Below are positions 3,995-28,157 of a stretch of DNA of 34,284 nucleotides, piece after piece. The notes below the pieces were generated by a model. That model saw only the letters and a program-made list of their open reading frames with translations, did no database searches and had not been told where the DNA came from. The DNA is from an uncultured Candidatus Competibacteraceae bacterium (GTDB lineage Bacteria; Pseudomonadota; Gammaproteobacteria; Competibacterales; Competibacteraceae), in assembly GCA_903879705.1 (NCBI GenBank), contig CAIRMO010000080.1, positions 1 to 34,284 on the forward strand, given 5' to 3'. Each line of letters opens with the position of its first letter. Position 1 is the stretch's first letter. The position numbers and the translations under genes are program-made.

Positions 3995-5497
3995 TTACCG
4001 CAACAGCGACAGGATATTCTGCTGCGACTGGTTGGCCTGAGACAGCATGGCGATACCGGCCTGGGACAGAATCTGCGCCTTGCTCAGGTTCGAGGTTTCC
4101 TTCCCGAAATCGGCGTCCTGAATCCGCGACCGGGCGCTGGTGATGTTATCCGACACGTTTTGCAGGTTGCTGATGGTCGAGTCGAAGCGGTTCTGCACCG
4201 CACCCAAGTCACCCCGCAGGTCGTCAATGAAGGCCAGCGCGTTGTCGATCACGCTGATGGCGTCGTTGGATCCGGTCTGGCTCTTGATATCGATGGTACC
4301 CACGTCGGTGAGTGTTGACGCGCCAGCCCCCGCCAGAGTGCCACCACTTGCAGTCACATTTGTGGTCGAGAAGCTCTTGCCGGATTCGTAGACCACCCGA
4401 CCACCCACTGTCGAGAAACTAGCACCGCTGGAAAAACCCGATGCAGCAGCACCATTCAGGGCACCATTCTGATCGATCCCCTTTACATCCCATGTACCTG
4501 ACGCACCTGTCGTAGATGCCCCCTTGATCTGGATGTCATAGCCATCGCTATTTTCGAGAAGGAGGGAAGCTGCGTTGGTCGGATCAACCTTCGCCGTAAC
4601 CCCTGTCGTACCCGATTTGTCATTGATAGCCGCCGCCAACCCTGCTAAATCGGTCGCGCTGGTTGTAGCACCTGAGGTACTCATGCTATAAGAAATGGTC
4701 ACGCCCGCAGCGGCTGCCGAGTTTTGTCCTTTCAATTGAAAACTGATCGCCCCCGTGGACGTAACCTGAAAATTAGCCTGAGTGATCGCCCTCGCGGTTA
4801 CCCCGGTTTGCGCGGTAATCCCATTGATCGCCGTAGCGATTGTCCTCGCACTGGACCCCGCCGCTGCGATGCTAGCGCTGGCAGTTCCCACTGAACCGTT
4901 AATGGTTATGGCACCAGAAACTGCATTGCTATTCGCTGCTCCAGAACTGGCCACAGAAATGGAGGCCGATGAAGTAATTCGCTGGGCACCAATCGCACTG
5001 GCTTGGGCACTCCCCATGCTGACCGCAATAGTCTGATTATTATTGGCGCCAACCTGGAATTTCTGGGCAGAGAAACTGCCATCGAGCAGGGTCTTGCCGT
5101 TGAACTGCGTGGTATTAGCGATGCGGTTCAGTTCCTGCTGCAATTGGCCCACTTCCTTTTGTAGCGAAGTACGGTCGGTGCCGGTATTGGTGTCGTTGGA
5201 CGATTGCACCGCCAGTTCACGCATCCGCTGGAGGATGTTGGTGGATTCCTGCAACGCACCTTCCGCGGTCTGCGTCAGGGAAATACCGTCATTGGCGTTA
5301 CGGGCCGCTTGATTAAGTCCCGTAATCTGCGAGGTCATGCGGTCGGCAATCGCCAAGCCGGCGGCGTCGTCCTTGGCGGAGTTGATCCGCAGGCCGGTGT
5401 TCAGGCGCTGCATGGCGGTACTGAGTTTTTCCTGGCTGCTCATCAAGCCGCGTTGGGCGGTCAAAGCGGAAGGGTTAGTGTTAATTCCGAGTGCCAT
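3995..5497 (-). CDS. fliC: Flagellin
   Basis: 500 residues. The conserved N-terminal D0/D1 region starts [18 protein letters not shown] and includes [20 protein letters not shown] and the [20 protein letters not shown] segment (residues 1-150). The C-terminal D1/D0 region (about 415-500) includes [20 protein letters not shown] and ends [11 protein letters not shown]. The centre (about 160-410) is an Ala/Ser/Thr/Gly-rich variable domain. It forms the filament after export by the flagellar type III apparatus. GGAGAAG stands in front of the ATG. The Ser/Thr-rich surface domain is a possible O-glycosylation target; whether the glycan genes further right act on it is only inference. A sigma28 promoter lies upstream. 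Confidence 0.97.
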
Positions 5498-6744: not shown

Positions 6745-7431
6745 TCAGCCAGCGCCTTCACTTTTACTCGGCCTCTGCAATGCCTGCTCTAAATTGCGCT
6801 GGGCCTCGTTGAAATCAGGTCGTAACGCCACAGCCTGACGAAACCGGGCAATGGCTTCCTCCCGGCGGCCCAGTTCCAATAATACCTTGCCCAGATTATT
6901 GCAGGCCAGCACATGGCCGGAATTTAACGCTAGTGTTCGTTGATAACTATCCACCGCTTCCTCCAGTCGTCCTAAACCCTGTAGCGCTTTGCCCAGATTG
7001 TTGTGATAGGTATCCGAGTCCGGGCTTTCCCGCAATGCCTGGCGGATCAGCCGCTCCGCAGTCGCATGATCGCCGCGCTGCGAATAAATCACCCCCAGCA
7101 GATGCAGCGCGTCGATGTAGGCCGGTTCTGCCTCGAAGACCTGACGATAGACTGCTTCGGCATCATCCAAGCGCTTGTCCCGATGCCATTGCGCCGCCTG
7201 CTCCAGCAATTGCTGGTAAATATTTTGAGCCTGTTGGGGTTGCTGTTCCTTCAACCGTTGTTCAGCCAAGGCCATCGCCTGGGTCAGGGTCAATGGCTGT
7301 TCATTGATTTGCACCATGAGTTGCTGGTTGCCGCGCATCAGGCTTTGCAGCAGAGTCATCGCCTCATTGCGCGTACTCGGTGAAGTGGATGAACGGTTGG
7401 AACTTCTTGATTGGCGGGGTTTATTCGGCAC
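6745..7431 (-). CDS. Tetratricopeptide repeat protein
   Basis: 228 residues, cytoplasmic, no signal peptide. After a basic, Ser/Arg-rich N-terminus (1-25) and a Gln-rich helical part come about four TPR units. Typical lines are DDAEAVYRQVFEAEPAYIDA, LGVIYSQRGDHATAERLI, LGKALQGLGRLEEAVDSYQR and LGKVLLELGRREEAIARFRQ. TPRs are protein-binding scaffolds; the partner is unknown. The start is a GTG at 7431 with AAGGAG 7 bases upstream (7439-7444). The gene is flanked by inverted REP-like repeats. TPR proteins often lie beside flagellin or surface-glycan genes, which suggests but does not show a link. Confidence 0.85.
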   Translation of the reverse strand: MPNKPRQSRSSNRSSTSPSTRNEAMTLLQSLMRGNQQLMVQINEQPLTLTQAMALAEQRLKEQQPQQAQNIYQQLLEQAAQWHRDKRLDDAEAVYRQVFEAEPAYIDALHLLGVIYSQRGDHATAERLIRQALRESPDSDTYHNNLGKALQGLGRLEEAVDSYQRTLALNSGHVLACNNLGKVLLELGRREEAIARFRQAVALRPDFNEAQRNLEQALQRPSKSEGAG

Positions 7432-10790: not shown

Positions 10791-13700
10791 TCAATCCGGC
10801 AGCAGTGCTTTCATCCATTCATCAAGGTGTTGGTCCAGCATCCAGTTCGATAGGACCCATTCACGCAATTGCTCTCCAGCGGTACGGGTCGCGTCCAGAT
10901 CATGAATGTGAGAGCGGATGGCGTCGATCCAGGCTTTGGGGTTGTTGGGGACGCGAGTGACGGGCGCATTCCGGTACGGCAGAACATCCGTGGCAATGAC
11001 TGGATAACTGACTGCGCCATATTCCAACAAGCGCAGATTGCTCTTGGCCGAGTTAAACCGATTCAGTTCAAGCGGTGCAATCGCCAGATCCAGATCGAGC
11101 GCGGCCAAGCCTGTCGGGTATTCATCGAACGCAACGGCGTTATGCACTTCAGCAACGTGATAGCGGAGTTTAGGCGGACACAGGCCCATGAAAATCCAGT
11201 CTACTTCATTGGCGGTTGCTTCAACCACCGGCAGGATAAATTCGAGATCGCCTTGGTGTTGCTGGGCGCCGGCCCAACCTACTCGGGGTTTACGTCGCTC
11301 TTTCTTGGGCGGTTGCAAATTGCCCCAACGCGAACGCTCCAGGTAGTTGGGAACCACGCGGATATCGTCAACCATGCCGCGCATCGCTTCAGCAATGGAT
11401 TCGGTGGTCACAATCGCCCGGTGGCATAGCGATACTCCGCGCCGCACCCGCGCTTTGGTGTCCTTACCAAAATGTTTATGTGCTGCGCTTTTTTGCGGAA
11501 CGGAAAACACAATATCGTCTTGGCCGAAAACCCGGAATAGATCGGGCAATAATTCGGCATAATTTTGCAGATCTTCCAGATGAAAGTCAGAGAAGGCATT
11601 TTGCAAAAATAAAACCGTCGGTTTGGCCCTGATCAGTTCAGAAACAAAGGGCATGAATCGCCGATCGCTGTTCAGGGGAGGTAATTGGAAACGGCATATC
11701 CGACCATTGTCAGCCAATTCTTTGAGTGGCCCCATCATCCGGTATTGTCCAACACCCATTTCATCCGGCGATTGAGCGACAATGCGGGGCAAGGATTCAA
11801 AATCAGGATGCCACGGCACGTCAAAATCACCGTCAATCATCCAATCGTGCTGGCGCAGACTCAAATGACGATTGTAGGCAGGGTCGTTGCCCAAGCGAGA
11901 GCGCCATTTCTTGATAAAGGCTTTGCGTGAGAATGAATCATTCGGTTCCTGCTGGGCATCGTGTTTGGTGTTAACGTCGCTTTTATCTTGGCAAGCCAGC
12001 GTCACAAAAGGCGTCCAGACAATCCGATAACCACGATCACCGAGTTTCAGGCAAAGATCGGCATCATAGTAAAAGTTGGAAAAATCTTTCTCATCGAAGC
12101 CGCCGACTTCAAGAAATAAAGCCTTACGAACCAGCATACAGGTAGCAGTTATTGCCGAGAAATTCTGGGTCAGTTGGGCGCGGCCCATATACCCGGATTC
12201 CGCTAACGGTAAATCCAGATTAATTGGGCCTACGGTACCATCGATACCCAGAATCAGACCAGCGTGCTTAAGCCGTTGATCGAACGAGACCACTCGGCAA
12301 CCAACCGCTCCCACATCGGTACAAACGCCTATCGCTGTTAAGCGGGTTAGCCAATTTTCCTGCAAAACGGTAGCGTTATCATTTAGCAATAACAAAAACT
12401 GACCCTGCGCTTGCCGAGCAGCAAAATTGCGGATTGCCGCATCATTGAATTTTTGTGAAGAGTGCAACACCCGCACCCGCGAGTCGTTATTTGATAATTT
12501 AGCAAGGAACGTCTGCACAGAAGGTTCGACATGACTGTGGTCAATTAAAAGAATCTCGAAACTTGGATAATCAGTTTTTTCCAGTAGCGATTCCAAACAG
12601 GATTGAATCCTGCCCAGTTGATCCTGAATCGGTACAATAATGCTGACCATCGGTGGACAAATTGGCAATTGATAGTCGATGAACAGCGTACCGGGTAGTG
12701 GACCGTCACCTATTCCAGCGGTGATGCCACAACGCGCCAGATGCTGTTGTACGAGCAGACGAGCAAGTGCAGTACCGGCGTATTCTTCAGCCAGTATTTC
12801 GGGAACATGAACAAGAATTTCGTCGATATGAGCGACAGCAGTTGAATCTTGCTCGACCGCTAAAAGAGCGGCTCCATAGTTGCGCGCTAGTCCTAGCGGC
12901 AGAATCGCGATCCGTGGATCGAGCATCAGCGGTTTGCGGATTAGTGTCGCCGCACCGATGTAGGGGTTTGAACGCAGTAATTCGATATTGATATCTGGTT
13001 TCAGCTTTAGCTGCGAGTATTCGCCTTCCGTGTTGATAATATCCTCATCAGTGTATAACAACAGGGTATTGGGTCGATTAAGTAGGTGCAGGCCAGCTAG
13101 CAAAGTGAATGCGGGTGAAAAACTTAGACCCGCTGGCGCACAGATAAACCACGCCGCAGGACTAGCCGTGACTATAGCGGTGATGGCATCAGCTTGTTGT
13201 TGAGAAGCAGTCTGAACCCATTCTAATACTTTGCTAGATTCAAATCGTGGATCGGGGCAAGCATGTTCGGAAAATATCGTGAGTCGCCAGTTGGGTAACG
13301 CTTGGGCAGCTAGATCATCAACCGTGTTGGTAACAAGTTTATTGATGAGTTCAGATAAGATCGTTAGTTGCTCACCTTGACCGCTGTAGTTTACAGTTAA
13401 AAGAATATGTATGTTTTTGATTAATTCCGGCGCTTCAATGCTGTTCAGTAAGCGCTGACAGCGCTCATTATTCCAGAGACGCTCGGCAAGCCATATTAAA
13501 TAATTCGTTTCTTTAATTTTTTCATGTCCGAAAAATTTATGGCAAATCTCATGAATTTCTTCAGTATTTAAAAAAACCTCACCTTCCTTTTTCATTACTT
13601 CTTCAAGTTTGTTTTTTAATCCATCAAAACTGGGCTGGCAATTTATATCACCTAACCATGTTTTCAATTCATTTTCATCAATCAACAGAATTAAAGAGGC

Positions 13701-15662
13701 AAAGGTTGAGTACTTCAGCGCAACCACAAGTGCAATAGCTTGTAAGCGATCTTGCTCCTGCTTAATAGGGACACCAAAGCTTTCAGCGTAAAAAGCGCCT
13801 TCTCTCGTCATGAACCAATGAGCTGAAGCTGCATAACTCTGATGGCTGCAGTGCTGGATAAAAACGACTAGAGAAAGAAAGACATTGACATAGTCGGGTT
13901 TAGGTGCCTTGGAAGCATACCAATGCCTTTCCAAAGGCTCCTCGATTTGAGCAACTGAGGAGTATGTATGTTGAACCGTAAGTTGCTTATCGTGACGACG
14001 CCAGTACCCACCTACTGTTCCAGAGTAACAACCATAGCCATAAGCATCTTCAAGCATTTTGAACAAAAATTGTTCACCTACTTGTGTCAGTGGGGAATCA
14101 CAAATCTTCTCGTAATAACTCATCAAGCAATGAGTACGAAAGACTGCCATGTGAAAAGGTATGAAGTTGCAAACAGTAAGGTATGGAGCAATACGCATTA
14201 AGCCAGATCGATTTGGCGAGAATGGGTGTCTATTATGTTCGACTACTTGCTTGGAATCTTCCATGAAGTGCCGCCAACTGAAGAAGACGAAGGGTGTCTT
14301 TGGAAATTGTTGAAATTGGCGCATAGCGGCTTCGACAAATGTACTTTCAAGAAAATCATCAGCTTGCAGTGCTGCGACAAATTCAGTCTCAACACTTTGT
14401 AATGCTAAACGATGGTTATTTTTTGCACCAATATTTTCATCCCTAATAACCAAACTAATACGAGGATCTTGCAAAAATGGTTCAATAATTTCTAGTGTAT
14501 TATCTGTTGAACGATTATCAAAAATAATTAGCCGCCATTCTGGAGAAGTTTGGTCTACGACAGATTGTATGGCCTCTGCAATGAAGTGAGCATAGTTATA
14601 ACTAGTTAGGACGATGGTTAGAAGACACTCTTCCTTAGGATGTTGATTAACAAGTGTAGATTGGTTTTTAGGTATTGAAAACTCTTGGTAGGCAGAAATT
14701 TTGTATGGAAAACCAAGCTTTACAAGCTCAATGTTACCCAATCTATTCCACTCTCCAAGTGGCTGACCTAAGCAGTGCAAGGAATTTTGCATACAAGGTT
14801 TACAAAGTGGATGGGAATACTTAAGCTTTTGCAAATCTTCCTTTGTTTTTTCCAAGAAAGATTTATGAATATTAGAAACAGGATCGTAAGTAATACAACA
14901 CAAGGCAACTGATCCATCATAATTAATAACAGTTTGCTGGCTTCTAAAATGACAATCTGGCAAATAGACTTTTTTTGCTATTTCAACCTGTTTTTCAATG
15001 GGTAACAAAAGGCGTTGATGTAATAAATTGTCATCATCTGATAATTTTTTACCCGACACATAGTTGAGTATCTTTTCAAGAGGCGCAAAACCTGCCCACC
15101 CTGGTATTAACTTAAAACCAAGTTCCTGTGCTAATGCAGTTGCCATTAAAAGATCGATATTTAGATTGTCTTTATAAAGATGATAATGCATTTCCACATG
15201 AAAATTTTTACTAAATTTTTCCATATAGTATTTCAAATGATAGAGATTTGATTTTACAATATTGATATTCCCTTTATGATGCCCTTTTTGATAAGTTTCC
15301 TGATAAAAACCTGATAACGATACGCGAAAAAAAGAAGGGTTTGCCTTAACTATATTTTTTAAATCACAATCAACATTTAAATTTGTTGAAAGCCAAGCAG
15401 GAATATCATTTTCTAACGAATATCGAATAAATTCATCTAATTGTGGATGTAAAAAAGCCTCACCCCAATTATAAAGATGAATAATCGGCTGCGATGCACT
15501 ATCTTCTCTCTTTATTTTCTTTACGATTTCTTTAAAGTAGGCAATATCCATCATTCCTTTGGGTCGAGATTGCCCTTGAAAATCTTGTTTTTTGAAATTC
15601 CCAACCGGACAAGAGGGGCATGCTAAATTGCAAGTACCTACCACATCTATAAAATACAACAT
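10791..15662 (-). CDS. Radical SAM / multidomain glycosyltransferase fusion
   Basis: About 1623 residues. Residues 1-310 form a radical SAM domain with C11-x3-C15-x2-C18 (CNLACPSC), the YNWGEAFLHPQ motif and a SPASM-like cysteine set (about 237, 255, 256, 287, 290, 297). Residues 345-590 are a GT2 domain (LTIVLTSYNYAHF, acidic QADDF). Residues 750-960 are a diverged GT2-like part (TDEDIIN, KLKPDINIELL). Residues 1005-1240 are a second clear GT2 (SIIVPIQDQ, LLLLNDNA). The last 340 residues resemble GT4 enzymes. It would build and perhaps chemically alter a surface glycan at the cytoplasmic face. I chose the ATG at 15662 because GGAG lies 8 bases upstream and the radical SAM domain begins there; a TTG at 15761 lacks a Shine-Dalgarno sequence. 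The 5' half is visibly more AT-rich than the 3' half. Confidence 0.85.
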   Translation of the reverse strand: MLYFIDVVGTCNLACPSCPVGNFKKQDFQGQSRPKGMMDIAYFKEIVKKIKREDSASQPIIHLYNWGEAFLHPQLDEFIRYSLENDIPAWLSTNLNVDCDLKNIVKANPSFFRVSLSGFYQETYQKGHHKGNINIVKSNLYHLKYYMEKFSKNFHVEMHYHLYKDNLNIDLLMATALAQELGFKLIPGWAGFAPLEKILNYVSGKKLSDDDNLLHQRLLLPIEKQVEIAKKVYLPDCHFRSQQTVINYDGSVALCCITYDPVSNIHKSFLEKTKEDLQKLKYSHPLCKPCMQNSLHCLGQPLGEWNRLGNIELVKLGFPYKISAYQEFSIPKNQSTLVNQHPKEECLLTIVLTSYNYAHFIAEAIQSVVDQTSPEWRLIIFDNRSTDNTLEIIEPFLQDPRISLVIRDENIGAKNNHRLALQSVETEFVAALQADDFLESTFVEAAMRQFQQFPKTPFVFFSWRHFMEDSKQVVEHNRHPFSPNRSGLMRIAPYLTVCNFIPFHMAVFRTHCLMSYYEKICDSPLTQVGEQFLFKMLEDAYGYGCYSGTVGGYWRRHDKQLTVQHTYSSVAQIEEPLERHWYASKAPKPDYVNVFLSLVVFIQHCSHQSYAASAHWFMTREGAFYAESFGVPIKQEQDRLQAIALVVALKYSTFASLILLIDENELKTWLGDINCQPSFDGLKNKLEEVMKKEGEVFLNTEEIHEICHKFFGHEKIKETNYLIWLAERLWNNERCQRLLNSIEAPELIKNIHILLTVNYSGQGEQLTILSELINKLVTNTVDDLAAQALPNWRLTIFSEHACPDPRFESSKVLEWVQTASQQQADAITAIVTASPAAWFICAPAGLSFSPAFTLLAGLHLLNRPNTLLLYTDEDIINTEGEYSQLKLKPDINIELLRSNPYIGAATLIRKPLMLDPRIAILPLGLARNYGAALLAVEQDSTAVAHIDEILVHVPEILAEEYAGTALARLLVQQHLARCGITAGIGDGPLPGTLFIDYQLPICPPMVSIIVPIQDQLGRIQSCLESLLEKTDYPSFEILLIDHSHVEPSVQTFLAKLSNNDSRVRVLHSSQKFNDAAIRNFAARQAQGQFLLLLNDNATVLQENWLTRLTAIGVCTDVGAVGCRVVSFDQRLKHAGLILGIDGTVGPINLDLPLAESGYMGRAQLTQNFSAITATCMLVRKALFLEVGGFDEKDFSNFYYDADLCLKLGDRGYRIVWTPFVTLACQDKSDVNTKHDAQQEPNDSFSRKAFIKKWRSRLGNDPAYNRHLSLRQHDWMIDGDFDVPWHPDFESLPRIVAQSPDEMGVGQYRMMGPLKELADNGRICRFQLPPLNSDRRFMPFVSELIRAKPTVLFLQNAFSDFHLEDLQNYAELLPDLFRVFGQDDIVFSVPQKSAAHKHFGKDTKARVRRGVSLCHRAIVTTESIAEAMRGMVDDIRVVPNYLERSRWGNLQPPKKERRKPRVGWAGAQQHQGDLEFILPVVEATANEVDWIFMGLCPPKLRYHVAEVHNAVAFDEYPTGLAALDLDLAIAPLELNRFNSAKSNLRLLEYGAVSYPVIATDVLPYRNAPVTRVPNNPKAWIDAIRSHIHDLDATRTAGEQLREWVLSNWMLDQHLDEWMKALLPD

Positions 15663-15761
15663 GTTACTTGCTCCATATAGGAACTCAATTAACATCAAGA
15701 AATACGGGTTACGAAACACACTTGTGCAGTTCTGGATTATTGCGTATGCCGCAGATTTCAA

Positions 15762-16553
15762 TCACGAAGTATGTCGAACCCGCTTCAAATAGCCATCCGG
15801 TGCAACAGTAATCAACAATTTATGCTCAATATCCTTATCAACCATAAATTCATTATGGGTTTTAAGAAACTCCCAGACTGCCGTTTTGGGGTTATTGCCT
15901 TTATCCCAGGGACGATCTGGGAAAGAACCAGGCGATATATCTTCGATGATTGTGTCAAAAACAACGCAATAGTTATTGAGACTCACTAATGGAGCGTAGG
16001 CGTTCAGTTCCGCTAGAACGTGGTCATGTGTATGCATCGAGTCCAAGCAGACTAGAATCCGTTGATAGTTTCTAGCGAAAGCGTGAACCTGGTCAACAAC
16101 ATCCTCCGCGATAGAAGAACCTTCAATCATCTTAATACGATTGCTAAGAGGATGATCTTCAATCCTGATGCGATTATGTTCACGAATGTCAACGTCGATA
16201 CCAAGCACCCATCGCTTAGGCAAACTTGGATTAATACATTCCTTGTTTTTTATTGCTTCGCATAAATCTAACAAAGCAAGCATTGATGCACTTAACATCA
16301 ATGAACCACCTCGGGCAATACCAGTTTCAATAATAAGATCAGGTTGAGTTTTCCAGATGATCTCTTGCAAAGCGATCATCTCTTGTGGATACTGGATAAT
16401 AGGCAACCCTATCCAGTCAAAATTATAGGAATACTGTGTACGTAAGCTTTCATGGAGAAAATTATCCGCCGAATTTAAAAGTGAAGTATCACACGAGTAA
16501 ACAGCGATTCGCTCAGTTCGTTCTTGCAGAAAATCTTGATGATCGTCTTTCAT
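15762..16553 (-). CDS. CmcI/cephalosporin-hydroxylase-family methyltransferase
   Basis: 263 residues. The SAM-binding motif IIETGIARGGSLMLSASML and the acidic strand VLGIDVDIREHN are followed by ILVCLDSMHTHDHVLAELNA and CVVFDTIIED. This is the family labelled cephalosporin hydroxylase, whose members in polysaccharide clusters are taken to be SAM-dependent O-methyltransferases with a metal bound by Asp/His. It probably methylates a sugar of the glycan made by this cluster; the substrate is unknown. The start at 16553 is an ATG with only a weak GAGA upstream. Its stop lies 99 bases before the start of the giant fusion gene. Confidence 0.85.
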   Translation of the reverse strand: MKDDHQDFLQERTERIAVYSCDTSLLNSADNFLHESLRTQYSYNFDWIGLPIIQYPQEMIALQEIIWKTQPDLIIETGIARGGSLMLSASMLALLDLCEAIKNKECINPSLPKRWVLGIDVDIREHNRIRIEDHPLSNRIKMIEGSSIAEDVVDQVHAFARNYQRILVCLDSMHTHDHVLAELNAYAPLVSLNNYCVVFDTIIEDISPGSFPDRPWDKGNNPKTAVWEFLKTHNEFMVDKDIEHKLLITVAPDGYLKRVRHTS

Positions 16554-16639: not shown

Positions 16640-17176
16640 TCAGTCACTATCAATTCTTCTGCCCACTATCGTAGGATCACTGAATTCGAGACCGTATTCG
16701 CTCCTAAACTCTTCTAATAAATGTAATTCTAAATCCATAAACATTTGATTTTCAAATTCCATAGCCTGCTGTAGTAATTTTCCACCTAATGAAAATTCAG
16801 CAAATTTTCCGCTTATATAGCTTTCATCTAGCCAAGCCTCAGGAGCTACTCGCATGCCCTCTGGCAACTCGAATATTTTTTTATAGAGATATACCAGCAT
16901 AGCAAATGCCTTGCTATTAAATCTAATATGTACTTTCATCTCTTTTGTAAAGTTAAGCACAGTATTTTCTCCAAGATTCGGATAATCCTCGATATGATCA
17001 TCGAACGATTCTTCAATCAAACCCATTTTCAATGACCTGTCATAAAGATCTGTATTTCGGAATGGCCAAAATATCCCACATACTGGAATATCAACACAGC
17101 ACCTTGCGTTTAGCTTGATTGTTGATAGCATATCCTCTTTGGTTTCCCCAGGTAGTCCACACATATTACATGGCAT
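16640..17176 (-). pseudogene. C-terminal remnant of a radical SAM (B12-type) protein
   Basis: About 178 residues that match only the last part of a B12-binding-domain radical SAM enzyme: GLPGETKEDMLSTIKLNA, then IFWPFRNTDLYDRSLKMGL and a helical tail. These line up with GFPEDTVETLEDTRQMIED and IIPFPGTKVFQQAQDDGL of the intact neighbour at 19429-20844. The CxxxCxxC cluster and the whole B12 domain are missing. It begins exactly where a truncated methyltransferase gene stops (17166-17176), in another frame. It appears to be the 3' side of a deletion joint. The fragment may still be translated but cannot bind the radical SAM cluster. Confidence 0.8.
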
Positions 17177-17540
17177 CCCGTAACCGATTTAAGAAGCTAC
17201 CAGAACCGCAGCCAACATCAACAACAAATGCACTTTTACGCAGACCTGAGTGATGGAGAATTTCTACTGTTTCAGCTAGGTATGCAGATTCGGCGGGATG
17301 CTTGTCTCTCAAACCATAAGAATTAATTAAGTAGTAATCTCGATAAAATGCATCGAAATCTTCAATTTTTGAGGACGTGTCATAATATACGAAGCCACAA
17401 TCACTACATGCAACCACATTTACTTCACCAGAAATCGGTGTTCCTTCAAATAAAGGGAACGAAAGATGACTCAGAAAAAATGCAGAAGTTGAACAGGAAC
17501 ACAAGGGGCATGCTCTCATAACTAAAATTTTTTCTGACAC
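17166..17540 (-). pseudogene. N-terminal remnant of a zinc-ribbon SAM methyltransferase
   Basis: 124 residues equal to the first third of a methyltransferase like the one at 18266-19429. It has a zinc ribbon with CPLC and CSDC pairs (MRACPLC, VACSDCGFVYYD), a linker with the family pattern FDAFYRDYY, then the SAM-binding motif VVDVGCGSGSFLNRLRDAM and an immediate stop. The remaining two thirds of the domain are absent. The GTG start at 17540 lies inside the end of the FkbM gene (19-base overlap), as expected of an operon gene that was once complete. The break is shared with the radical SAM remnant beside it. Confidence 0.85.
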
Positions 17541-18253
17541 CGACTTCTCTCTTCGACCATATCAGTCATCTTAGAATTCAAGAAAAGTGCGTTTGCAGTC
17601 CAAACACGCCCGGCATCTGTATAAACAAAAGGTAGTATATCCCAAAGCCTGTACCCTTTTGGCTCCAAAAACTCCAATAGATCACGCAACTTCATTTGAT
17701 TAACATAAGATTCAGCCAAAGTGACCTCTAAATAAATCATCCCAACAGCACCAGTGGTCAGCATTGAAATACCTCCATTGAGAACATCTAGCTCAGCTCC
17801 TTGCACATCTATCTTAAGTATGTCAATGCTGTCAACTCCGGATTCATAGCAGACCCTATCAAGAGTGCGACATTCAACATTGATTAAATCAAAATCATAT
17901 TTATGGTCTGGACTTAATTGTTGAAGCCAAGGCTCAGGAGACAAAAAAGAACTCATTTCTGGCAGGCGCATGATATGAAAAGCCCTACATTCATTTGTAC
18001 TACCAAGAGCAAATAAATAAAGATGTACATCTTTTAACCATCCATATGAATTTTTTAATTCATCAAAAACATAGGGAACAGGCTCAAAACTATATACACG
18101 GCAATCGGGCAGTAGCTCTCGGTAATTTAAAATACTTTGTCCTCGATTAGCGCCGACATCAAAAATTAGCGGTTTTTGCACTTGACACGCGGTCAATATA
18201 TCAACTTGTTTAATAAAAATTTCTTTTTCTTTGGATTCCAAATAAATACCCAT
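17522..18253 (-). CDS. FkbM family methyltransferase
   Basis: 243 residues. Motif I is LIFDVGANRGQSILNYREL, followed by VYSFEPVPYVFDEL, the ECRTLDRVC segment and the FkbM hallmark ILKIDVQGAELDVLNGG. The family uses SAM to O-methylate sugars or polyketides, and in glycan clusters it usually methylates a terminal sugar. The ATG at 18253 has GAGG 7 bases upstream. It lies 12 bases after the stop of the zinc-ribbon methyltransferase and overlaps the next gene fragment, so it is within the operon. It is AT-richer than the flagellar genes. Confidence 0.92.
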   Translation of the reverse strand: MGIYLESKEKEIFIKQVDILTACQVQKPLIFDVGANRGQSILNYRELLPDCRVYSFEPVPYVFDELKNSYGWLKDVHLYLFALGSTNECRAFHIMRLPEMSSFLSPEPWLQQLSPDHKYDFDLINVECRTLDRVCYESGVDSIDILKIDVQGAELDVLNGGISMLTTGAVGMIYLEVTLAESYVNQMKLRDLLEFLEPKGYRLWDILPFVYTDAGRVWTANALFLNSKMTDMVEERSRCQKKF

Positions 18254-18265
18254 AACTTACCTCGT

Positions 18266-19429
18266 TTAAATCACTAAATATGAGTTGTTATTATAATCAT
18301 ATTTCATAAGCTGGCAAATCATGTCTGCCGTATAAATAGACTTAGGTATGAGAATAAATTTTTCATTAAAATTAATTAAATTGGCAGAAGAACGTATCTC
18401 AATTCCACGTATTTTTCGACCAATTTTTGCTGAAGATACATCAAAAAGCCCCTTTAATCGTTCCAGAATTTCGGGATGCATACCAAGAATCAACATGGCA
18501 TATTGCGACAAACCCCAAAGAAGCAAGTCTCTATTAGTCGACAAAATTTCTGCAATTTGATCCCCGGATACTGGCTGAACAGGTAATCCATTAGCCAGAT
18601 ACATAGCTAACCCTGAGTCTGAAATATTATTTTCTACATTTTCCTCCCTCTGGCATAAAACATATAGACAATCCATCTCGCTACCTTCACCAGGCTGGAA
18701 AGACCATGTATCGACAGCCATTGGCGCTAGCCCAGCTTTCTGTATCATGGCTAGAAAATGTGAGCGATCAAAATGATTAATATGTTCAAAGTAAAACCAA
18801 GACCAAGGAATCACTGCATCAAGTAAAACCGCAGTATTCGGAACCTCAATATAAAATATAGCATCCGGATCAGACGCTGAAACTATTTCGCGTAAGAAAG
18901 ACAGCGGATCATAAAGGTGTTCCAGTACATGACTCACCACAACAACCGACGGTGCTTCAGGTAACTGCTCAATGCGTTCAACGACCGACAGCCCTGCTAT
19001 GCTCCCCACAAAATCGCGGCAAGCGTTCGATGCTTCTAGTCCAAACAAAGAGCTATAACCACGATCCCGAAGATACAGCAATAACCCCGCTTTGCCACAA
19101 CCCACATCCAAAATCGTTTGAGTGGGGTCCAACCACTCATCGAGTCGCTCCAGCAACCGCTCATAGCGAGCGCACTCAACTGGAGTACTACCTCCTGAAC
19201 CCGCCGTAGTAGAGACCGAATAATGATCATTGCCTCTGTAGTAAGCTGCTAATGCTTCGGAACCTTCACTCAAGTCATTAAAAACAAATCCGCAAGACGA
19301 ACAAGCCACTAAAGGACTCACTCCTGACAAACCAAGATCATCAAACAAAGCATAACGAAGCGGGCGGATTAGCCAGCCTTGTGCAGTTCCACATAACGGA
19401 CAGGGTCTATGAAATAAAAACTTTTCCAT
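18266..19429 (-). CDS. Zinc-ribbon class I SAM methyltransferase with C-terminal Rossmann-like module
   Basis: 387 residues. A zinc ribbon (C10, C13, C43, C46) leads into a methyltransferase domain with ILDVGCGKAGLLLYLRDRG, VVVVSHVLEHLYDPLSFL and a downstream YIEVPN strand. The last 110 residues contain LLLWGLSQYAMLIL and LFDVSSAKIGRKIRGIEI, which match the pattern of the N-terminal module of the three radical SAM paralogs further upstream. The substrate is probably a nucleotide sugar or lipid-linked glycan; this is inference. Its ATG shares one base with the stop of the radical SAM gene before it (TGATG), indicating translational coupling. Confidence 0.87.
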   Translation of the reverse strand: MEKFLFHRPCPLCGTAQGWLIRPLRYALFDDLGLSGVSPLVACSSCGFVFNDLSEGSEALAAYYRGNDHYSVSTTAGSGGSTPVECARYERLLERLDEWLDPTQTILDVGCGKAGLLLYLRDRGYSSLFGLEASNACRDFVGSIAGLSVVERIEQLPEAPSVVVVSHVLEHLYDPLSFLREIVSASDPDAIFYIEVPNTAVLLDAVIPWSWFYFEHINHFDRSHFLAMIQKAGLAPMAVDTWSFQPGEGSEMDCLYVLCQREENVENNISDSGLAMYLANGLPVQPVSGDQIAEILSTNRDLLLWGLSQYAMLILGMHPEILERLKGLFDVSSAKIGRKIRGIEIRSSANLINFNEKFILIPKSIYTADMICQLMKYDYNNNSYLVI

Positions 19430-20844
19430 CAGGCGACAATCTTATTGAGCAGGCGGGCTTTATCGCTCTTGAATTGTAGAGAATCAAACACCTTCCGATA
19501 ATAGCGTAGCTCATCCATACTCATTTGATAGGGCTTAACAAAAAAGCGTGCTTCATCCTGAACTGGGTCAAGGTTAATGGCACCTTTCCATAAATCTTCA
19601 GGCTTAAAAGAATCCAGAAAAAGACCATCATCCTGAGCTTGTTGAAACACTTTGGTTCCTGGAAAAGGAATAATATTAAAAACATAATTCAAGTCGAGTT
19701 CCAAATCTTCAATCATCTGGCGGGTATCTTCCAAGGTCTCTACAGTATCTTCCGGGAAACCCATAATAAACATACTACTGGTAAACATTCCATGGCGCTT
19801 CAATGAATCCGACACCGCGTAAATCTTATCACGAGACAGCTTTTTTCCGACTAAGGCACGCATTTGATCATTACCATGCTCAATAGGTAAACGAACAAAA
19901 ACACAGCCCGCTGCCCCCATAGCACTGATCACCTCATCATCAAGCGCTGCCAGATAAGTACCACAGGTCGTTTCCCATTGAATATTCAATCCACGACGAA
20001 CAATATCATTGCAGATAGTCAAAATATGCTTACGATTAATATTAACGTTATCATCAATAAACCCAAAATAATTCTGGCCCCATTGCCGATGCAATTTTTC
20101 AATTTCATCAACGACTTTTTCTGGAGTACGAAGCCGCAGTTTACGTCCCATAGTGGTATAAATCGCACAAAAATTACAGGTAAAGGGACAACTACGAGAG
20201 GAAAGGATCGGTACAGATAAATTAAATTTCAAGCCCTTTGGATTATACCAACTGGAAAGATCAATATAGTAGTCGGGGAGAGAAATCAGATCCCATGCTG
20301 CCTCAGGTAAATCATCAAGATTGACGTAGCTCAATCGCTCATTTATAAGAATCTCCCCATTTCTCCGAAAAGCCAGCGACTGAATATGATCGAGATTTTC
20401 CCTATTTCCTACAGCAAGTGCGTTAGCCAATTCAACAATCGTCTCCTCTGCTTCACCGACAGCTACAAAATCAAAAGCATTACTATTTTGCAGAATTTCA
20501 CGAGGGAAAAGGCTGGGGTGAGCGCCTCCCGTAGCAATAGGAAGATCCGGCATGACCACACGGATAGCCTCAGCCAATTCTAATACCACCGGAAAATGCA
20601 AAGTAGTAAAACAGTTAATACCAACGAAATCTGGATTTATTTCAGCAAGCTTAGCGAGCGTTTCGTCTATATAATAGCGCTCTGAATTAACACTATTTCC
20701 ATTTTTGATTGACAGATCAAGTATATATGGCTCATGCTCGTGCTGACGCAACATAGCCGCCAAATATAAAAGTGGCACTGGAATAGTCCCTTTGGAATCT
20801 TTGAGACCTTCGAGTTTGACTGGCGCAATGAGCAGGACTTTCAT
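19429..20844 (-). CDS. B12-binding-domain radical SAM protein
   Basis: 471 residues. The N-terminal 160 residues are a cobalamin-binding-type Rossmann domain (MKVLLIAPVK, VGINCFTTLHFP, ATGGAHPSLFP, VAVGEAEETI). The radical SAM domain has C219-x3-C223-x2-C226 (CPFTCNFC), then FGFIDDNVNIN, RLPIEHGNDQMR and FIMGFPEDTVETLE. Members of this class catalyse methylations at unactivated carbon, ring contractions and other radical steps; many bind cobalamin. In a glycan cluster a C-methylation or another sugar change is plausible. A DxHxxG motif is not seen, which is usual outside the methionine synthase type. It lies 49 bases after the GT4 gene. Confidence 0.9.
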   Translation of the reverse strand: MKVLLIAPVKLEGLKDSKGTIPVPLLYLAAMLRQHEHEPYILDLSIKNGNSVNSERYYIDETLAKLAEINPDFVGINCFTTLHFPVVLELAEAIRVVMPDLPIATGGAHPSLFPREILQNSNAFDFVAVGEAEETIVELANALAVGNRENLDHIQSLAFRRNGEILINERLSYVNLDDLPEAAWDLISLPDYYIDLSSWYNPKGLKFNLSVPILSSRSCPFTCNFCAIYTTMGRKLRLRTPEKVVDEIEKLHRQWGQNYFGFIDDNVNINRKHILTICNDIVRRGLNIQWETTCGTYLAALDDEVISAMGAAGCVFVRLPIEHGNDQMRALVGKKLSRDKIYAVSDSLKRHGMFTSSMFIMGFPEDTVETLEDTRQMIEDLELDLNYVFNIIPFPGTKVFQQAQDDGLFLDSFKPEDLWKGAINLDPVQDEARFFVKPYQMSMDELRYYRKVFDSLQFKSDKARLLNKIVA

Positions 20845-20893: not shown

Positions 20894-22249
20894 TCAATCT
20901 AAGACTACTGGATTAAACGCTTCGCGCATCACAGAGCAAAGCTTGGCAATCGGTACATCATCCGGGAAACAGGATTGGTAATGAAATAGAGAACCCCGCG
21001 TATCGGAAAAACACGCGACCGGTAATTGCCGAATCTGCTCACCCCATGATTCTAGGCCATTCGTTACCACACTACGCAACACCCTGCCAGCCATCGTACC
21101 TTCCCAAGCATCAAGCAACAGATTTAACGAATGCGACTCTACAGGAGCAAGCGTAGTTGAACCCTGTAGGAAACGCAGTCGCCGCGCCAAACTCATCCCC
21201 TCTTCATAAATGACGTGCCAAGCATTCACCGTCTCCCGGATGGAAAACCGGACAGCAACCCACTCCTGCGCCTGCTGCGCTAATATTTCCAACCAGGGCC
21301 GATTCGCATGAAGCTGACGCAAGGCTCGCACATATTCCCGCTCATCAGCACACACCAAACCTGTACGACCATCATCAACGATATAGCGTTCGCAACCCGT
21401 ATCGAGAACCACGGGTACCGCGCCAGCCGCCATCGCTTCCAACAACACCTGCTCACCCGTCCCATAATGCTGAGTATTCAGCGGGTAGCCGAACACATCC
21501 AACGTCACCATCAAGTGCAGCGCATCTTCAATCGGCCCCAGAATATCGAAACGCTCTTCCACCCCTGCTTCGACCACCTGCCGCCTCAAAACTTCATGGC
21601 GGGGACCCCCAGCGACGATAAATCGGGTATTCAGTAACCCAGTCGCCAAGCAAAGCTGCACAAAGTCAGGATGCATTTTCGCAGCATCGACTGTGCCGAT
21701 ATATCCCACCCGAAAAACACCATCCGCACTTCGAGTACGCTCGGGTAAAGTCGGCACACCTGCACAACTCTGAATCACACGGATATCCACCTCCCCTTTA
21801 GCTAAGGGCTGAGCCAAAGCGGGAGCCTTCCGACTCCAAGGTGTTGCCAGTGCCAGTATATCAGGGTAATCCGCCAACCCCAAAGGAAAATTCTGTGGAG
21901 GATAATGGCCGTTGACATGACTCCAAAGTATACAACGAAACGGCGGCCAATCCGGTCGATGCATAAAGTCATTCAATAACGGATGATGCCACCAGTGCAG
22001 ATGCACAATATCCGCATCCGCCAGCAATCCTCGAAGAGCCTCATCCTGACCCCACAGGCGATCCACCGCCAAAACGCCCTCAGCCGCCGTCCATTCAGTC
22101 ATGCGGTCATTAAGATATTCCAGACAGGCCAGTCGGTGTTCAAAGCCACCCTGTCTGCAACTTTCCGACACCAACGCCCGCACCACAGTACCTACTCCTC
22201 CCCCATAATGAGGGGCAAAATGCAGAACGCGGATCGGGCGGCGCAACAT
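20894..22249 (-). CDS. GT4-type glycosyltransferase
   Basis: 451 residues. The N-terminal Rossmann half starts RVLHFAPHYGGGVGTVVRAL, with the glycine loop that binds the acceptor phosphate or donor. The C-terminal half has VGYIGTVDAAKMHP, FIVAGGPRHEVLR and the donor-binding E-x-x-x-x-E line GTGEQVLLEAMAAGAVPVV. It ends with a roughly 90-residue extension of unknown function. GT4 enzymes retain the sugar anomeric configuration and use nucleotide sugars at the cytoplasmic face. It lies 5 bases after the radical SAM gene at 22255-23526 and is clearly cotranscribed with it. Confidence 0.9.
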   Translation of the reverse strand: MLRRPIRVLHFAPHYGGGVGTVVRALVSESCRQGGFEHRLACLEYLNDRMTEWTAAEGVLAVDRLWGQDEALRGLLADADIVHLHWWHHPLLNDFMHRPDWPPFRCILWSHVNGHYPPQNFPLGLADYPDILALATPWSRKAPALAQPLAKGEVDIRVIQSCAGVPTLPERTRSADGVFRVGYIGTVDAAKMHPDFVQLCLATGLLNTRFIVAGGPRHEVLRRQVVEAGVEERFDILGPIEDALHLMVTLDVFGYPLNTQHYGTGEQVLLEAMAAGAVPVVLDTGCERYIVDDGRTGLVCADEREYVRALRQLHANRPWLEILAQQAQEWVAVRFSIRETVNAWHVIYEEGMSLARRLRFLQGSTTLAPVESHSLNLLLDAWEGTMAGRVLRSVVTNGLESWGEQIRQLPVACFSDTRGSLFHYQSCFPDDVPIAKLCSVMREAFNPVVLD

Positions 22250-22254
22250 TCAGA

Positions 22255-23526
22255 TTAACCTTGCATATCCGCTGTGATTGAAACGTCCGTATCCAACCGG
22301 GCATAGGAACTGCAATACTGATGAATGCCATGGCTGGAACAGCGCTTACATAAATCCGAGGCGTAACGCCGAGTCTGGATATCGTCCAAAGAAGTCGTCA
22401 AATAATCTTGAGCAACGATATTAGCTTCTGGGTAATAATACATCATACAGGTGCTGACTGAAGCATCCCAATTGATATTAACGCAGCGCAAAGCATCACA
22501 AGACAGGTGGGCATAGCGACGGGCAATATCAATGCCTTGATCAAGATTCAGCAACAATAGATCAGCCGCCTTTTGCGCAGGTTCAGGCAGAGGATGTCCC
22601 TCACAGTGCGCCAACACATCATCCAGAGACACCAGATAAGCATAAACCGGGTGAAGCTCCAGATTCAGTTCCTCACATAATGTACGAAAGCGCTCCAACC
22701 CCTCGCCCACGCTATGCTTATAAAGATGGTAATACACCTCCACCTTCATCTCCGGATGATATTCGCGTCGCAACCGAGCTACTTCGCGCAAATGCTCCAG
22801 GAAAACAGACCAGCGCCCCTTAGTATGGGTAATTTCATAATCCTCACCCCAACCGGAAGCCGAAATTCGCAACCACTCCGGCTTGGCGGCTAAAATCCGC
22901 GCATAGTCCACCTTAGCGTTCAAATTACTGGAGATTGCGCAACGCACCCCTTTCTCATGGGCATAGGCAATAATTTCCGGCAACTGTGGGTGTAGTGTCG
23001 GCTCACCCCACTGATAAAGTTGGATATTACCGACAAAAGGACTCTCTGCCACGATCTTATCCAGTACCCTCTGGAAGGTTTCCAAGGGCATAAAACCCAG
23101 CTTACGCTCGTCTGGGGAACGAGTAGCACGGGGACAGGAAATGCATTTAAGATTACAGGTACCAGAAATATCAACCGAATAATCAACAGGTTTAAGCCGA
23201 GTATAACCCAAAAAATCCCGGCCTTCTAACAAGTTAACAGCCTGTAATTGGCTGGCGATGTCAATTTCAAAAAAATAGGAAGCGATAATAACAAAGTGAT
23301 CATCTCCAAAATCACTAGCGTTAACCATATCAGGCTTACACACCGGCAGACCCATCAACTGCTCACTCTCCCCACGAACGGAACGGTCAATAAATCCAGC
23401 AATGTTGATCCGGTGTGAACGCAAAACCTGACAGATACCGCGTCCCTGATTCCCGGCTCCCCAGATCCAGATGTCGCGAGCGCCAACAGTCTGCCTTAGT
23501 AAATCAAGTGCATTCTGTACATTCAT
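22255..23526 (-). CDS. Radical SAM/SPASM-like protein, paralog 3 of array
   Basis: 423 residues. Residues 15-110 form a Rossmann-like module (DIWIWGAGNQGRGICQVL, GFIDRSVRG, FVIIASYFF). The radical SAM cluster ligands are C124, C128, C131 (CNLKCISC), followed by LYQWGEPTLHPQL, AISSNLN and the VEVYYHLYKHS segment shared by all copies. The C-terminal region has a SPASM-like cysteine set (C..RCVNINWDASVSTCM and LCKRCSSHG). The start ATG overlaps the stop of paralog 2 by 4 bases. The function is unknown. The fold, and the fusion of a fourth copy to glycosyltransferases, suggest a glycan-linked radical reaction. Confidence 0.88.
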   Translation of the reverse strand: MNVQNALDLLRQTVGARDIWIWGAGNQGRGICQVLRSHRINIAGFIDRSVRGESEQLMGLPVCKPDMVNASDFGDDHFVIIASYFFEIDIASQLQAVNLLEGRDFLGYTRLKPVDYSVDISGTCNLKCISCPRATRSPDERKLGFMPLETFQRVLDKIVAESPFVGNIQLYQWGEPTLHPQLPEIIAYAHEKGVRCAISSNLNAKVDYARILAAKPEWLRISASGWGEDYEITHTKGRWSVFLEHLREVARLRREYHPEMKVEVYYHLYKHSVGEGLERFRTLCEELNLELHPVYAYLVSLDDVLAHCEGHPLPEPAQKAADLLLLNLDQGIDIARRYAHLSCDALRCVNINWDASVSTCMMYYYPEANIVAQDYLTTSLDDIQTRRYASDLCKRCSSHGIHQYCSSYARLDTDVSITADMQG

Positions 23527-24797
23527 TGGCTGTCCTCGCTACGTTGCCGCCAGCCTTCCGGCTCGCCATTATCGAGAATCCGTTCTTCCAGATAAACCCC
23601 GGTGTAATGATGCAAACCATGACTCATGCAATGGCCGCAAAATGCACTATTCTTCCGCCGCGCCATAATTTCCGTCAACGGTATTTCCAGGAAATCTTGA
23701 GCAATAAATGGCTTAAAATAAACACCACAAAATCGCACCCGCCGATCCCAATTGATCGGTAAACAGCGTTCCTCAGGACAAGGTTGCTCCCGGCGACTTT
23801 TAGCGCGGGCTAGTCCTTCGTCGATATCCATGAGCATCATATCCAAGGTTTGTTGCGCTTCTGGCGACAAAGGGCGACCTTCTACATGATCAAGGACATT
23901 ATCAAGAGAATAGAGATAAGCCATATTTGGTCGAAAAATAAATCCCAATTCCTCGCAGAGACCGCGCATTGCAAGATAACTATCCCCAATGCTATGTTTA
24001 TAAAGATGATAATTAAGAATAATCTGCATATCGGGATGATACACATCCCGCAACAGTGCCAACCGGTGAAGATTCGCCAGAAATTGCTCCCAGTGACCGC
24101 CTGTATGACCAATTTCGTAAGCGGAGCCAAATCCTGAAGCAGAAACCTTAATCCAATCCGGTTTAGCAGCAATCACCTCGCGCAGTCCTCGATCGACTTT
24201 TAAGTTCGTCGATATCGCTGTCAATACTTTGGCGTCCCGAGTGCAAGCAATAATCTCTGGCAATTGCCGGTTTAAAAGGGGTTCCCCCCAAGCATAGAGT
24301 TGAATGCTACCAAGAAACGGGATTTCCCGCAGCAGCTTATCCAACACGCGCTGGTAATCGGACACACTGATAAAACCTACTGGAGGGCGCTCTTCAATGT
24401 TGCCCTGTGGACAAGAAACACAGCGCAGATTACAAATTCCGGAGACATCTACACTAGGGTCAAGATCATTCAACTCCCGCGATGGTAAATAATGGGTATG
24501 ATGAACCAGTCCATTGGCAAGGCAAATATCTTCAATAGCCCGATCGTGATGTCCCGACCCAATCACGATATACGCTTGCCCATCGCGTGCAGCCGCCAGT
24601 ATGGGTTCCGGCGATATTACCGGGTAACCTAATGCACAGGTTCCCTGCATACTGGGGCTGGAATCAAGAAATCCCTGTACTGGAAGAGCATACCGCTCAA
24701 AGGCTCGGCAAACTCCTTGGCCGACGATCATTGCGCCCCAGATATAGACTGGGCGACCATTGATCTTGGTCAGTAACTGCTCCGGATCGATGTCCAT
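23523..24797 (-). CDS. Radical SAM/SPASM-like protein, paralog 2 of array
   Basis: 424 residues, same architecture as its neighbours. The N-terminal module is VYIWGAMIVGQGVCRAF, GFLDSSPSMQG, IVIGSGHHDRA. The cluster ligands are C122, C126, C129 (CNLRCVSC), with LYAWGEPLLNRQL and ILNYHLYKHS. The C-terminal cysteines are in CPEERCLPINWDRRVRFCG and FCGHCMSHGLHHY. The second Gly of the nucleotide-binding loop is kept. The gap to paralog 1 is only 3 bases (TGA ACC ATG). Side-by-side conservation with paralogs 1 and 3 is strong through the radical SAM domain and weaker at the ends, so these are old rather than recent duplicates. Confidence 0.88.
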   Translation of the reverse strand: MDIDPEQLLTKINGRPVYIWGAMIVGQGVCRAFERYALPVQGFLDSSPSMQGTCALGYPVISPEPILAAARDGQAYIVIGSGHHDRAIEDICLANGLVHHTHYLPSRELNDLDPSVDVSGICNLRCVSCPQGNIEERPPVGFISVSDYQRVLDKLLREIPFLGSIQLYAWGEPLLNRQLPEIIACTRDAKVLTAISTNLKVDRGLREVIAAKPDWIKVSASGFGSAYEIGHTGGHWEQFLANLHRLALLRDVYHPDMQIILNYHLYKHSIGDSYLAMRGLCEELGFIFRPNMAYLYSLDNVLDHVEGRPLSPEAQQTLDMMLMDIDEGLARAKSRREQPCPEERCLPINWDRRVRFCGVYFKPFIAQDFLEIPLTEIMARRKNSAFCGHCMSHGLHHYTGVYLEERILDNGEPEGWRQRSEDSQ

Positions 24798-24800
24798 GGT

Positions 24801-27311: not shown

Positions 27312-28157
27312 TTAACCCTGTCCATGAAAAATTTGATCAAACCGCTTTCTACTACCCCAAAAAGCCATCGGCTCATAGTCTGGGTAAGGGTAATAACCAA
27401 GATTAAGGTCGATACGCCAACCGTTTTCCTTGATCCAGCCTTCAACCAGCTTACGAACGGAAACGGGCTTTCCTGAGCAAATATTTACAATACCGTTATT
27501 TTCAGCCATCTCTGCTAAGGCAATTAAATATTCCCCAACTTTAGCAACCGGTAGATAGTCCCGCAACTGCTCTCCACCAGACATATTGAACACTTTATGA
27601 CCCTGTTCCACTGCCCTCCTGAGTTGTGGCAATAATGAATTTTCCGCCTGCCCTTCCCCATAAAGGTAAAAGAGTCGCGTCCAAGTCAGATTGAAGGACC
27701 ACATCTGTTGGAGATATTCAAGCTGGCGTCGAAGCATATCTTTGGCGAATCCATAAGGATTATTAGGGCGTGTTTCCAAGTTTTCATTAAGCGGACCCGA
27801 CTGCATGCCGTATTCAAAACAGGTTCCAGCAACTACTAGGTTTTTTAACCCAGACTCCACTAGTGCCTTTAGGAATCGATACTGAGCGGGTAATTCTTCT
27901 TCAAAATGATGCAAAGACTTGTAATTCGGTAGTCCAGTCCATGCCAGATGAATCAAGGCATCAGGCCGATCCAATAAATCAAATACGTTCGCCGATGGAT
28001 CTCTCAGATCCATCGAAACAACGGCATGTCTTGAAAGCGGCAGTGGAATTTCTGCCGAGGGCTGACACATCAAGATCGGAGATATTAAGCGCCGTTCCAT
28101 CTCTGTAATAACATGTTGGCCAATGAATCCGGTTGCCCCGGTGACCGCAATCTTCAC
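27312..28157 (-). CDS. NAD-dependent epimerase/dehydratase (SDR), likely CDP-4-keto-sugar reductase
   Basis: 281 residues, extended SDR fold. The NAD loop is KIAVTGATGFIGQHV. The catalytic Tyr-x-x-x-Lys is in NPYGFAKDM, with the VAGTCFEYGM strand bearing the partner residue. LFYLYGEGQ and GGEQLRDYLPV are typical of reductases acting on 4-keto-6-deoxysugars such as abequose or talose synthases. Given rfbF and rfbG nearby, it may reduce the 4-keto group of a CDP-4-keto-6-deoxyhexose; this is inference. The start is a GTG at 28157 overlapping the stop of an aminotransferase remnant. The insertion sequence lies downstream, 117 bases after its stop. Confidence 0.82.
   Translation of the reverse strand: MKIAVTGATGFIGQHVITEMERRLISPILMCQPSAEIPLPLSRHAVVSMDLRDPSANVFDLLDRPDALIHLAWTGLPNYKSLHHFEEELPAQYRFLKALVESGLKNLVVAGTCFEYGMQSGPLNENLETRPNNPYGFAKDMLRRQLEYLQQMWSFNLTWTRLFYLYGEGQAENSLLPQLRRAVEQGHKVFNMSGGEQLRDYLPVAKVGEYLIALAEMAENNGIVNICSGKPVSVRKLVEGWIKENGWRIDLNLGYYPYPDYEPMAFWGSRKRFDQIFHGQG

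Follow-up and report, generated by a model that had tools for sequence, protein, structure and literature searches.

A twitch-type radical SAM domain joined in frame to a putative flagellin glycosyltransferase in a Competibacteraceae genome

Two kinds of described system come closest to the locus reported here: FgtA-type genes, which are taken to assemble a glycan directly on flagellin, and radical SAM enzymes that act on sugars, which are known mainly from antibiotic pathways. BlsE (cytosylglucuronate decarboxylase) and DesII are nucleoside or nucleotide-sugar radical SAM enzymes whose folds resemble that of our domain (Z 19.4 and 18.6), and to our knowledge neither is joined to a glycosyltransferase. 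BtrN, the 2-deoxy-scyllo-inosamine dehydrogenase (PDB 4M7S/4M7T), combines like our domain a radical SAM part with a twitch domain of C-X17-C ... CX2C spacing, but it is a free-standing protein of an antibiotic pathway. The accessible part of PMC9012708 presents BtrN as a twitch-domain two-electron oxidase whose four-Cys auxiliary cluster is the likely electron acceptor. FgtA (PA1091) of P. aeruginosa PAO1 is, in the accessible part of PMC11833859, one gene that unites a flagellin glycosyltransferase with a second glycan-modifying activity, which is a separate gene in C. difficile, and a pa1091 mutant yielded non-glycosylated flagellin. By that description, rather than by sequence, FgtA is like the fused gene in being a large flagellin-cluster gene with GT2 and a second activity, but the second activity of FgtA is a phosphotransferase and not a radical SAM enzyme.

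A preliminary description of this DNA had held that no characterised enzyme has this arrangement, and the openly accessible literature, searched by titles and abstract openings with most subscription journals outside the scope, yielded no description of a radical SAM-glycosyltransferase fusion. The accessible parts of PMC2791219, PMC2147049 and PMC8326336 hold nothing that bears on it. The novelty lies in an unusual domain join inside a recognisable kind of system.

The fused gene and its modules

The window, by which we mean the whole stretch of DNA analysed (34,284 nucleotides), carries on its minus strand a frame of 1656 amino acids (10791-15761) that opens with a TTG right behind the stop of the upstream gene. 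An ATG at 15662, residue 34 of this frame, is preceded at 8 nucleotides by GGAG and gives a stop-free product of 1623 amino acids (10791..15662). The single frame of about 1623 codons reported earlier is therefore real; the plus-strand reading of the same interval is riddled with stops. Residue numbers given here are those of the 1656-aa open frame.

The N-terminal part consists of a predicted radical SAM barrel and a twitch-type auxiliary-cluster domain (residues 34-330, 14772..15662), with C44, C48 and C51 in a CX3CX2C motif and C270, C288, C320 and C323 as the auxiliary cysteines. It is followed by a linker predicted to be disordered (residues 331-376, 14634..14771, pLDDT below 50) and by a first GT2 domain (residues 382-542, 14136..14618, Pfam PF00535), near whose beginning lies the start of the unfused UBA2383 relative in the alignment. 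A degenerate stretch (residues ~760-1030, 12672..13484) separates it from a second Pfam GT2 domain (residues 1036-1254, 12000..12656), and the protein ends in a GT4-like glycosyltransferase (residues 1376-1655, 10797..11636) recognised by PHROGs phrog_7162 (E 4e-30) and only weakly by Pfam (E 0.033, under the cut-off). Weak GT1/GT4 Pfam matches were also found in two of the eight members of its sequence set, A4. Pfam matched nothing over residues ~760-1030, where the GT2 likeness is a motif reading by eye; a profile built from these residues recovers the corresponding region of homologous proteins and, with a weak match (E 2e-5), a portion of another large frame in the source genome. Thus, in the series GT2, GT2-like, GT2 and GT4-like proposed in the preliminary description, both GT2 domains and the GT4-like one were recovered by models and the GT2-like one by eye only. 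The predicted structure of the C-terminal half was poor (pLDDT 47, pTM 0.37) and was left out of the fold search.

We looked for a start codon that could separate the two parts. No in-frame ATG, GTG or TTG occurs between residues 341 and 430, and an internal start of the glycosyltransferase's own was rejected. Since the usual start is absent near the first GT2, the radical SAM and glycosyltransferase parts are most simply one protein. The open frame and its modules bear out the earlier view of a radical SAM domain joined to glycosyltransferases in a sugar-related context.

The radical SAM domain and its relatives

The Pfam Radical_SAM model (PF04055) gave no match to the fused protein at E<=0.1 and the Pfam SPASM model gave E 0.033; the three window paralogues scored 20.7, 29.3 and 37.3 bits against PF04055, whose cut-off is 29.5. 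The miss appears to be a matter of sequence-model threshold, outweighed by the motif and the predicted fold. NCBIfam TIGR04317 matched residues 37-289 (E 6.9e-11; 41.9 of 380 bits, far under its cut-off) and a PHROGs radical SAM model matched residues 40-291 (E 1.1e-7). The cysteines of C44-X3-C48-X2-C51 and C270, C288, C320 and C323 were invariant in all 18 aligned sequences, the fused protein included, and an AlphaFold model of the N-terminal part (7 sequences; pLDDT 75.7, pTM 0.79) showed the radical SAM fold. The putative radical SAM identity rests on the sub-cut-off NCBIfam match, the PHROGs match, the seven invariant cysteines and this predicted fold. The best solved match to the model was BlsE (Z 19.4, rmsd 3.7 over 264 residues), tied with SuiB, MoaA, DesII and anSME (Z 18.5 to 19.4), and a sactipeptide enzyme was also among the top matches. 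As peptide radical SAM enzymes score like sugar ones, the fold match has no evidential value for the substrate. A profile search of the PDB returned 12 distinct sequences at E<=0.001, with BtrN as the best and with DesII, cytosylglucuronate decarboxylase and also non-sugar enzymes among the others; the strong part of the BtrN match is confined to 75 N-terminal residues, with the cluster region aligned at 4 bits.

The seven-cysteine SPASM motif is defined in the accessible part of PMC6231123 as CX9-15GX4C-gap-CX2CX5CX3C-gap-C. The fused protein departs from it: C270-X12-G-X4-C288 is followed by C320-X2-C323 and X6-C330, and the next cysteine, C379, is located inside the glycosyltransferase. As the full SPASM motif is absent, the domain is of the twitch type and could accommodate one auxiliary cluster. 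The four ligands C270, C288, C320 and C323 correspond to one predicted cluster, with the C-X17-C and CX2C spacing of the BtrN chain. The earlier label of radical SAM/SPASM-like therefore keeps its first half, on motif and predicted fold, and exchanges SPASM for twitch. The domain had also been called closely patterned on the radical SAM array upstream, which is true loosely, at 29-33% identity; the tree places the fused domain with other proteins, on a long end branch of uncertain exact position, and an origin by duplication of the array was rejected. A viperin-like defence reading of the array was rejected as well, the PADLOC matches being weak for the three paralogues (best 27.8 bits) and nil for the fused protein.

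The nearest relative found, at 38-40% identity, is a 530-aa protein of genome G277. It is like the fused gene in its radical SAM part and in adjoining a GT41-type protein, but its N-terminal part has weak TPR matches and no glycosyltransferase. Fusions of GT2 and radical SAM domains exist elsewhere: a 1265-aa protein of G817 reads GT2-radical SAM-SPASM-GT2 followed by a 4Fe-4S-type match, and an 874-aa protein of G920 shows GT2, radical SAM, SPASM and cupin matches, both with strong Pfam support. Like the fused gene they hold GT2 and radical SAM in one frame, but with GT2 first and SPASM over the Pfam cut-off. A query with the GT2 and radical SAM parts of the G920 protein matched end to end only itself and the G817 protein (44% identity), that is, 2 of 395 genomes with three candidates scored per genome. 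Because the radical SAM parts of these two proteins occupy a very distant branch of the tree from the fused domain, GT2 and radical SAM domains came together on more than one occasion. We know of no characterisation of the G817 and G920 fusions. Other large frames were set aside because they have no Pfam glycosyltransferase: those of G1033 (radical SAM/SPASM-methyltransferase), G814, G1142, G1000 and G1066 and a 574-aa frame of G1065. Two of these, L127:4478-8968 (G1033) and L151:1793-4933 (G814), join radical SAM/SPASM and methyltransferase domains to a stretch that matches GH127/squalene-cyclase-like models. Separately, the 65-kb Smac51 plasmid CP026658.1 (L067) encodes six members of the same radical SAM family, which are annotated as hypothetical proteins, together with a perosamine synthetase and an annotated cephalosporin hydroxylase.

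Matches to the radical SAM part or to its family profile, with the source genome included, occurred in 7 of 369 genomes of the class (E 1e-8), 8 of 398 of the phylum (1e-30) and 9 of 39 of the family (1e-10), and in 1 of 78 genomes of the class of G436 (E 1e-20). Outside the source genome, none of these class, phylum, family or G436-class matches lay in a frame longer than 534 aa. The same fusion was found in 0/6 of the other matching class genomes, 0/7 for the phylum and 0/8 for the family; as several of these searches scored 3-5 candidates per genome, the absences fall short of proof. Two further sampled groups had family matches in 44/395 and 22/168 genomes, the longest listed frame in the second being 405 aa. 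Relatives were also located at nine loci of viral contigs, where the seven that pass a profile cut-off of 1e-15 sit in frames of 326-437 aa and no long frame was seen. On plasmids, the radical SAM-GT2 stretch retrieved two records, both matching over the radical SAM part alone, and the radical SAM part by itself retrieved three. The preliminary description had proposed to search for the parts as neighbours, and a Methylocystis plasmid has them: some 4 kb separate a free-standing radical SAM gene from an annotated glycosyltransferase of 1788 aa, after which comes rfbF. It had also set absence from every relative against the fusion, and this holds in part: the radical SAM part is absent from three of three complete relatives of the glycosyltransferase, and in none of the eight other matching family genomes does it lie in a long frame.

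The flagellin island and the CDP-sugar cassette

The three complete relatives (1290, 1262 and 1267 aa) begin with an ATG at the first GT2. The 1290-aa UBA2383 relative shows 71% identity to residues 375-1656 of the fused protein. GC content is 34% in the radical SAM part and about 50% in the C-terminal half, and the low-to-high gradient is common to the UBA2383 relative; since this relative matches residues 375-1656 and mirrors the gradient, only the radical SAM part is extra. The 1262- and 1267-aa relatives carry another kind of first GT2 (about 30% over 126-180 aa), which counts against the reading that we prefer. Gene order was compared in relatives from records labelled Candidatus Competibacteraceae, Proteobacteria or Pseudomonadota. 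In three loci (L075, L078 and L080) the glycosyltransferase is directly followed by a TPR protein and flagellar genes, and in two others (L029 and L030) an opposite-strand gene, GT41-type in the scanned L029, comes before the TPR protein. A fliC gene was present near 10 of the 24 loci with a glycosyltransferase homologue in the DNA available, many of the other loci stopping at contig edges. By gene order the window has the same fliC and fliD/fliS neighbourhood. Judged from its sequence relatives, the fused protein from the first GT2 onward appears to be a flagellin-island glycosyltransferase of the Competibacteraceae.

All genes of the island considered here lie on the minus strand. Past the fused gene come several genes that include a DUF3368 and a Fic gene, then a TPR protein (6745..7431), which in the relatives stands between the glycosyltransferase and fliC, then fliC (3995..5497), followed by flaG, fliD and fliS towards coordinate 700. 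About 3.4 kb of other genes separate the fused gene from the TPR and fliC genes; there the Fic-family gene occupies 7759-8616, with Fic-like fragments recognised by eye, and the DUF3368 gene 10028-10504. On the other side, the order leading to the fused gene starts with rfbF (glucose-1-phosphate cytidylyltransferase), rfbG (CDP-glucose 4,6-dehydratase) and an rmlC-type epimerase (31407..33792), each over its NCBIfam equivalog cut-off. A sugar C-methyltransferase gene (30193..31410) comes next, broken into three frames by comparison with its G436 homologue, which could be either decay or mutation or a sequencing error. Two unidentified ORFs, an NAD-dependent sugar epimerase/dehydratase (27312..28157) and a DDE transposase gene (26138-27142) lead to the tandem twitch-type radical SAM proteins rSAM1, rSAM2 and rSAM3 (22255..26084, rSAM3 lowest). 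In G436 the epimerase and rSAM1 genes adjoin. The Pfam scan then identified a GT4-type glycosyltransferase (20894..22249), a B12-binding radical SAM protein (19429..20844), a SAM-dependent methyltransferase (18266..19429) and an FkbM-type methyltransferase (17522..18253). Two truncated genes (16640..17540) follow, with a Pfam match for neither: 17166-17540 is the N-terminal part of a methyltransferase, and 16640-17176 resembles, by eye, the C-terminal end of a B12-binding radical SAM protein. Their end-to-end overlap suggests an internal deletion in the island. Directly upstream of the fused gene is a CmcI/rhamnosyl O-methyltransferase-type gene (15762..16553, Pfam), syntenic in G436. The rSAM1-3 proteins and their homologues carry an extra N-terminal domain of ~110 aa, of WGA type and weakly like the start of NeuD/PglB-type sugar acetyltransferases (TIGR03570), possibly a nucleotide-binding fold.

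Much of this arrangement recurs. The genes rfbF-rfbG-rmlC, the epimerase, rSAM1-rSAM2-rSAM3 and the GT4-type gene keep the same order in the window, G436, G988, G1011 and G1065, which belong to two sampled groups, and rSAM1-3 are 47-60% identical to their counterparts in the other cassettes. The B12 radical SAM, methyltransferase and FkbM or CmcI genes surround the cassette in differing order, and both the window and G436 have the C-methyltransferase after rmlC. Between the epimerase and rSAM1, G988 has two genes, one of them CmcI-like, and in G1065 rSAM1 and rSAM2 are separated by a fourth radical SAM gene. Three of the five genomes (the window, G436 and G1011) have flagellar genes next to the cassette: in G1011 it adjoins fliD/fliS, and in G436 a plain GT2 comes after it, then a GT41-type protein, fliC, fliD and fliS. 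BLAST detected no flagellar genes near it within the available stretches of G1065 and G988. In G1065 it ends in a protein of 1886 aa with five GT2 stretches, and G1011 has a 2226-aa protein of that kind beyond it, so that with the window three of five genomes show a large glycosyltransferase at or beyond the cassette end. Among the five, the window alone has a radical SAM domain on it. This recurring multi-radical-SAM sugar cassette is apparently undescribed in the openly accessible literature searched.

Function of the fused protein and alternative readings

We give a probability of about one half to the reading that the fused gene encodes a glycosyltransferase for flagellin to which a sugar-tailoring radical SAM domain has been added at the N-terminus. 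PMC6231123, in its accessible part, warns that function, like fold, is hard to predict from sequence networks in the radical SAM subfamily concerned, and for this reason our confidence is held there. The roles of the C-methyltransferase, FkbM and CmcI families are established. Because these families accompany the rfbF, rfbG and rmlC equivalogs, the cassette would make a methylated CDP-6-deoxyhexose. The radical SAM part would hold two [4Fe-4S] clusters, a catalytic one and an auxiliary one with all its ligands, and, in the manner of BtrN, would take two electrons from a sugar C-H/OH, or else epimerise the sugar; by this analogy, oxidation or epimerisation at a sugar carbon is its most likely reaction. 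In the cytoplasm, the glycosyltransferase modules would assemble a short glycan straight onto Ser/Thr of flagellin, with the long flexible tether holding the radical domain close to the sugar under transfer. We lean slightly towards a flagellin-bound sugar, rather than a nucleotide sugar, as the substrate.

The strongest alternative is an accidental and recent joining, in which the final gene of an imported cassette became attached to the resident glycosyltransferase through a deletion in a recombining island; the protein would be produced, but its radical SAM domain would be a passenger or would work as it did on its own. The signs of decay in the cassette, namely the broken C-methyltransferase, the two truncated genes that overlap end to end and the transposase gene, speak for such an event and count against the preferred reading, and the fusion was seen once in the sample. 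However, the join is in frame and falls at a linker that separates two complete modules, none of the seven cluster cysteines has been lost, and GT2-radical SAM fusions arose separately in another lineage; we consider an accidental joining rather unlikely.

The substrate of the domain might instead be the peptide of flagellin, for instance a side chain of Ser, Thr or Cys close to where the glycan is attached. The presence of SuiB, anSME and a sactipeptide enzyme in the top fold matches fits this proposal, but three further members of this radical SAM family sit in a recurring CDP-sugar cassette that also has methyltransferases and a GT4-type gene. Moreover, BtrN leads the PDB profile matches, DesII and cytosylglucuronate decarboxylase ranking lower, and no peptide-recognition (RRE) domain was detected in the Pfam and NCBIfam scans. 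A peptide substrate thus seems improbable.

An assembly chimera of two genes would be suggested by the single source of the fusion, a draft genome of 148 contigs, and by the GC difference between the two ends of the gene. Yet the frame stays open, and the assembly contains the 501-bp junction once, the one other match being a chance run of 23 bases, so that repeat-driven misjoining is not indicated. Nor is the GC gradient a sign of a chimera, since the unfused UBA2383 relative has the same one. We regard this explanation as very unlikely.

The earlier proposal of a radical modification on a growing lipid-linked glycan (O-antigen or capsule), whose clusters in the O-antigen case also carry CDP-hexose, epimerase and GT4 genes, is equally hard to sustain, as the glycosyltransferase belongs to a flagellin-neighbour group and the Pfam scan revealed no initiating lipid-phosphate transferase, flippase, polymerase or ligase among the 28 window proteins that it covered, which makes direct transfer onto flagellin the likelier course, although the genome may encode such functions outside this set.

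A broader form of the flagellin glycosyltransferase reading is offered tentatively: a protein-glycosylating enzyme with its own radical SAM domain may rewrite a sugar during or after its placement on flagellin, and may be the visible end of a wider mobile flagellar cassette of CDP-hexose genes and three to four twitch-type radical SAM proteins, which would spread between distant bacteria and yield radical-tailored glycans. The covalent link between a radical SAM domain and a putative flagellin glycosyltransferase provides a concrete, testable case of radical chemistry in bacterial protein glycosylation, and the cassette together with the fused gene represents a defined gene set whose products could be sought on flagellin.
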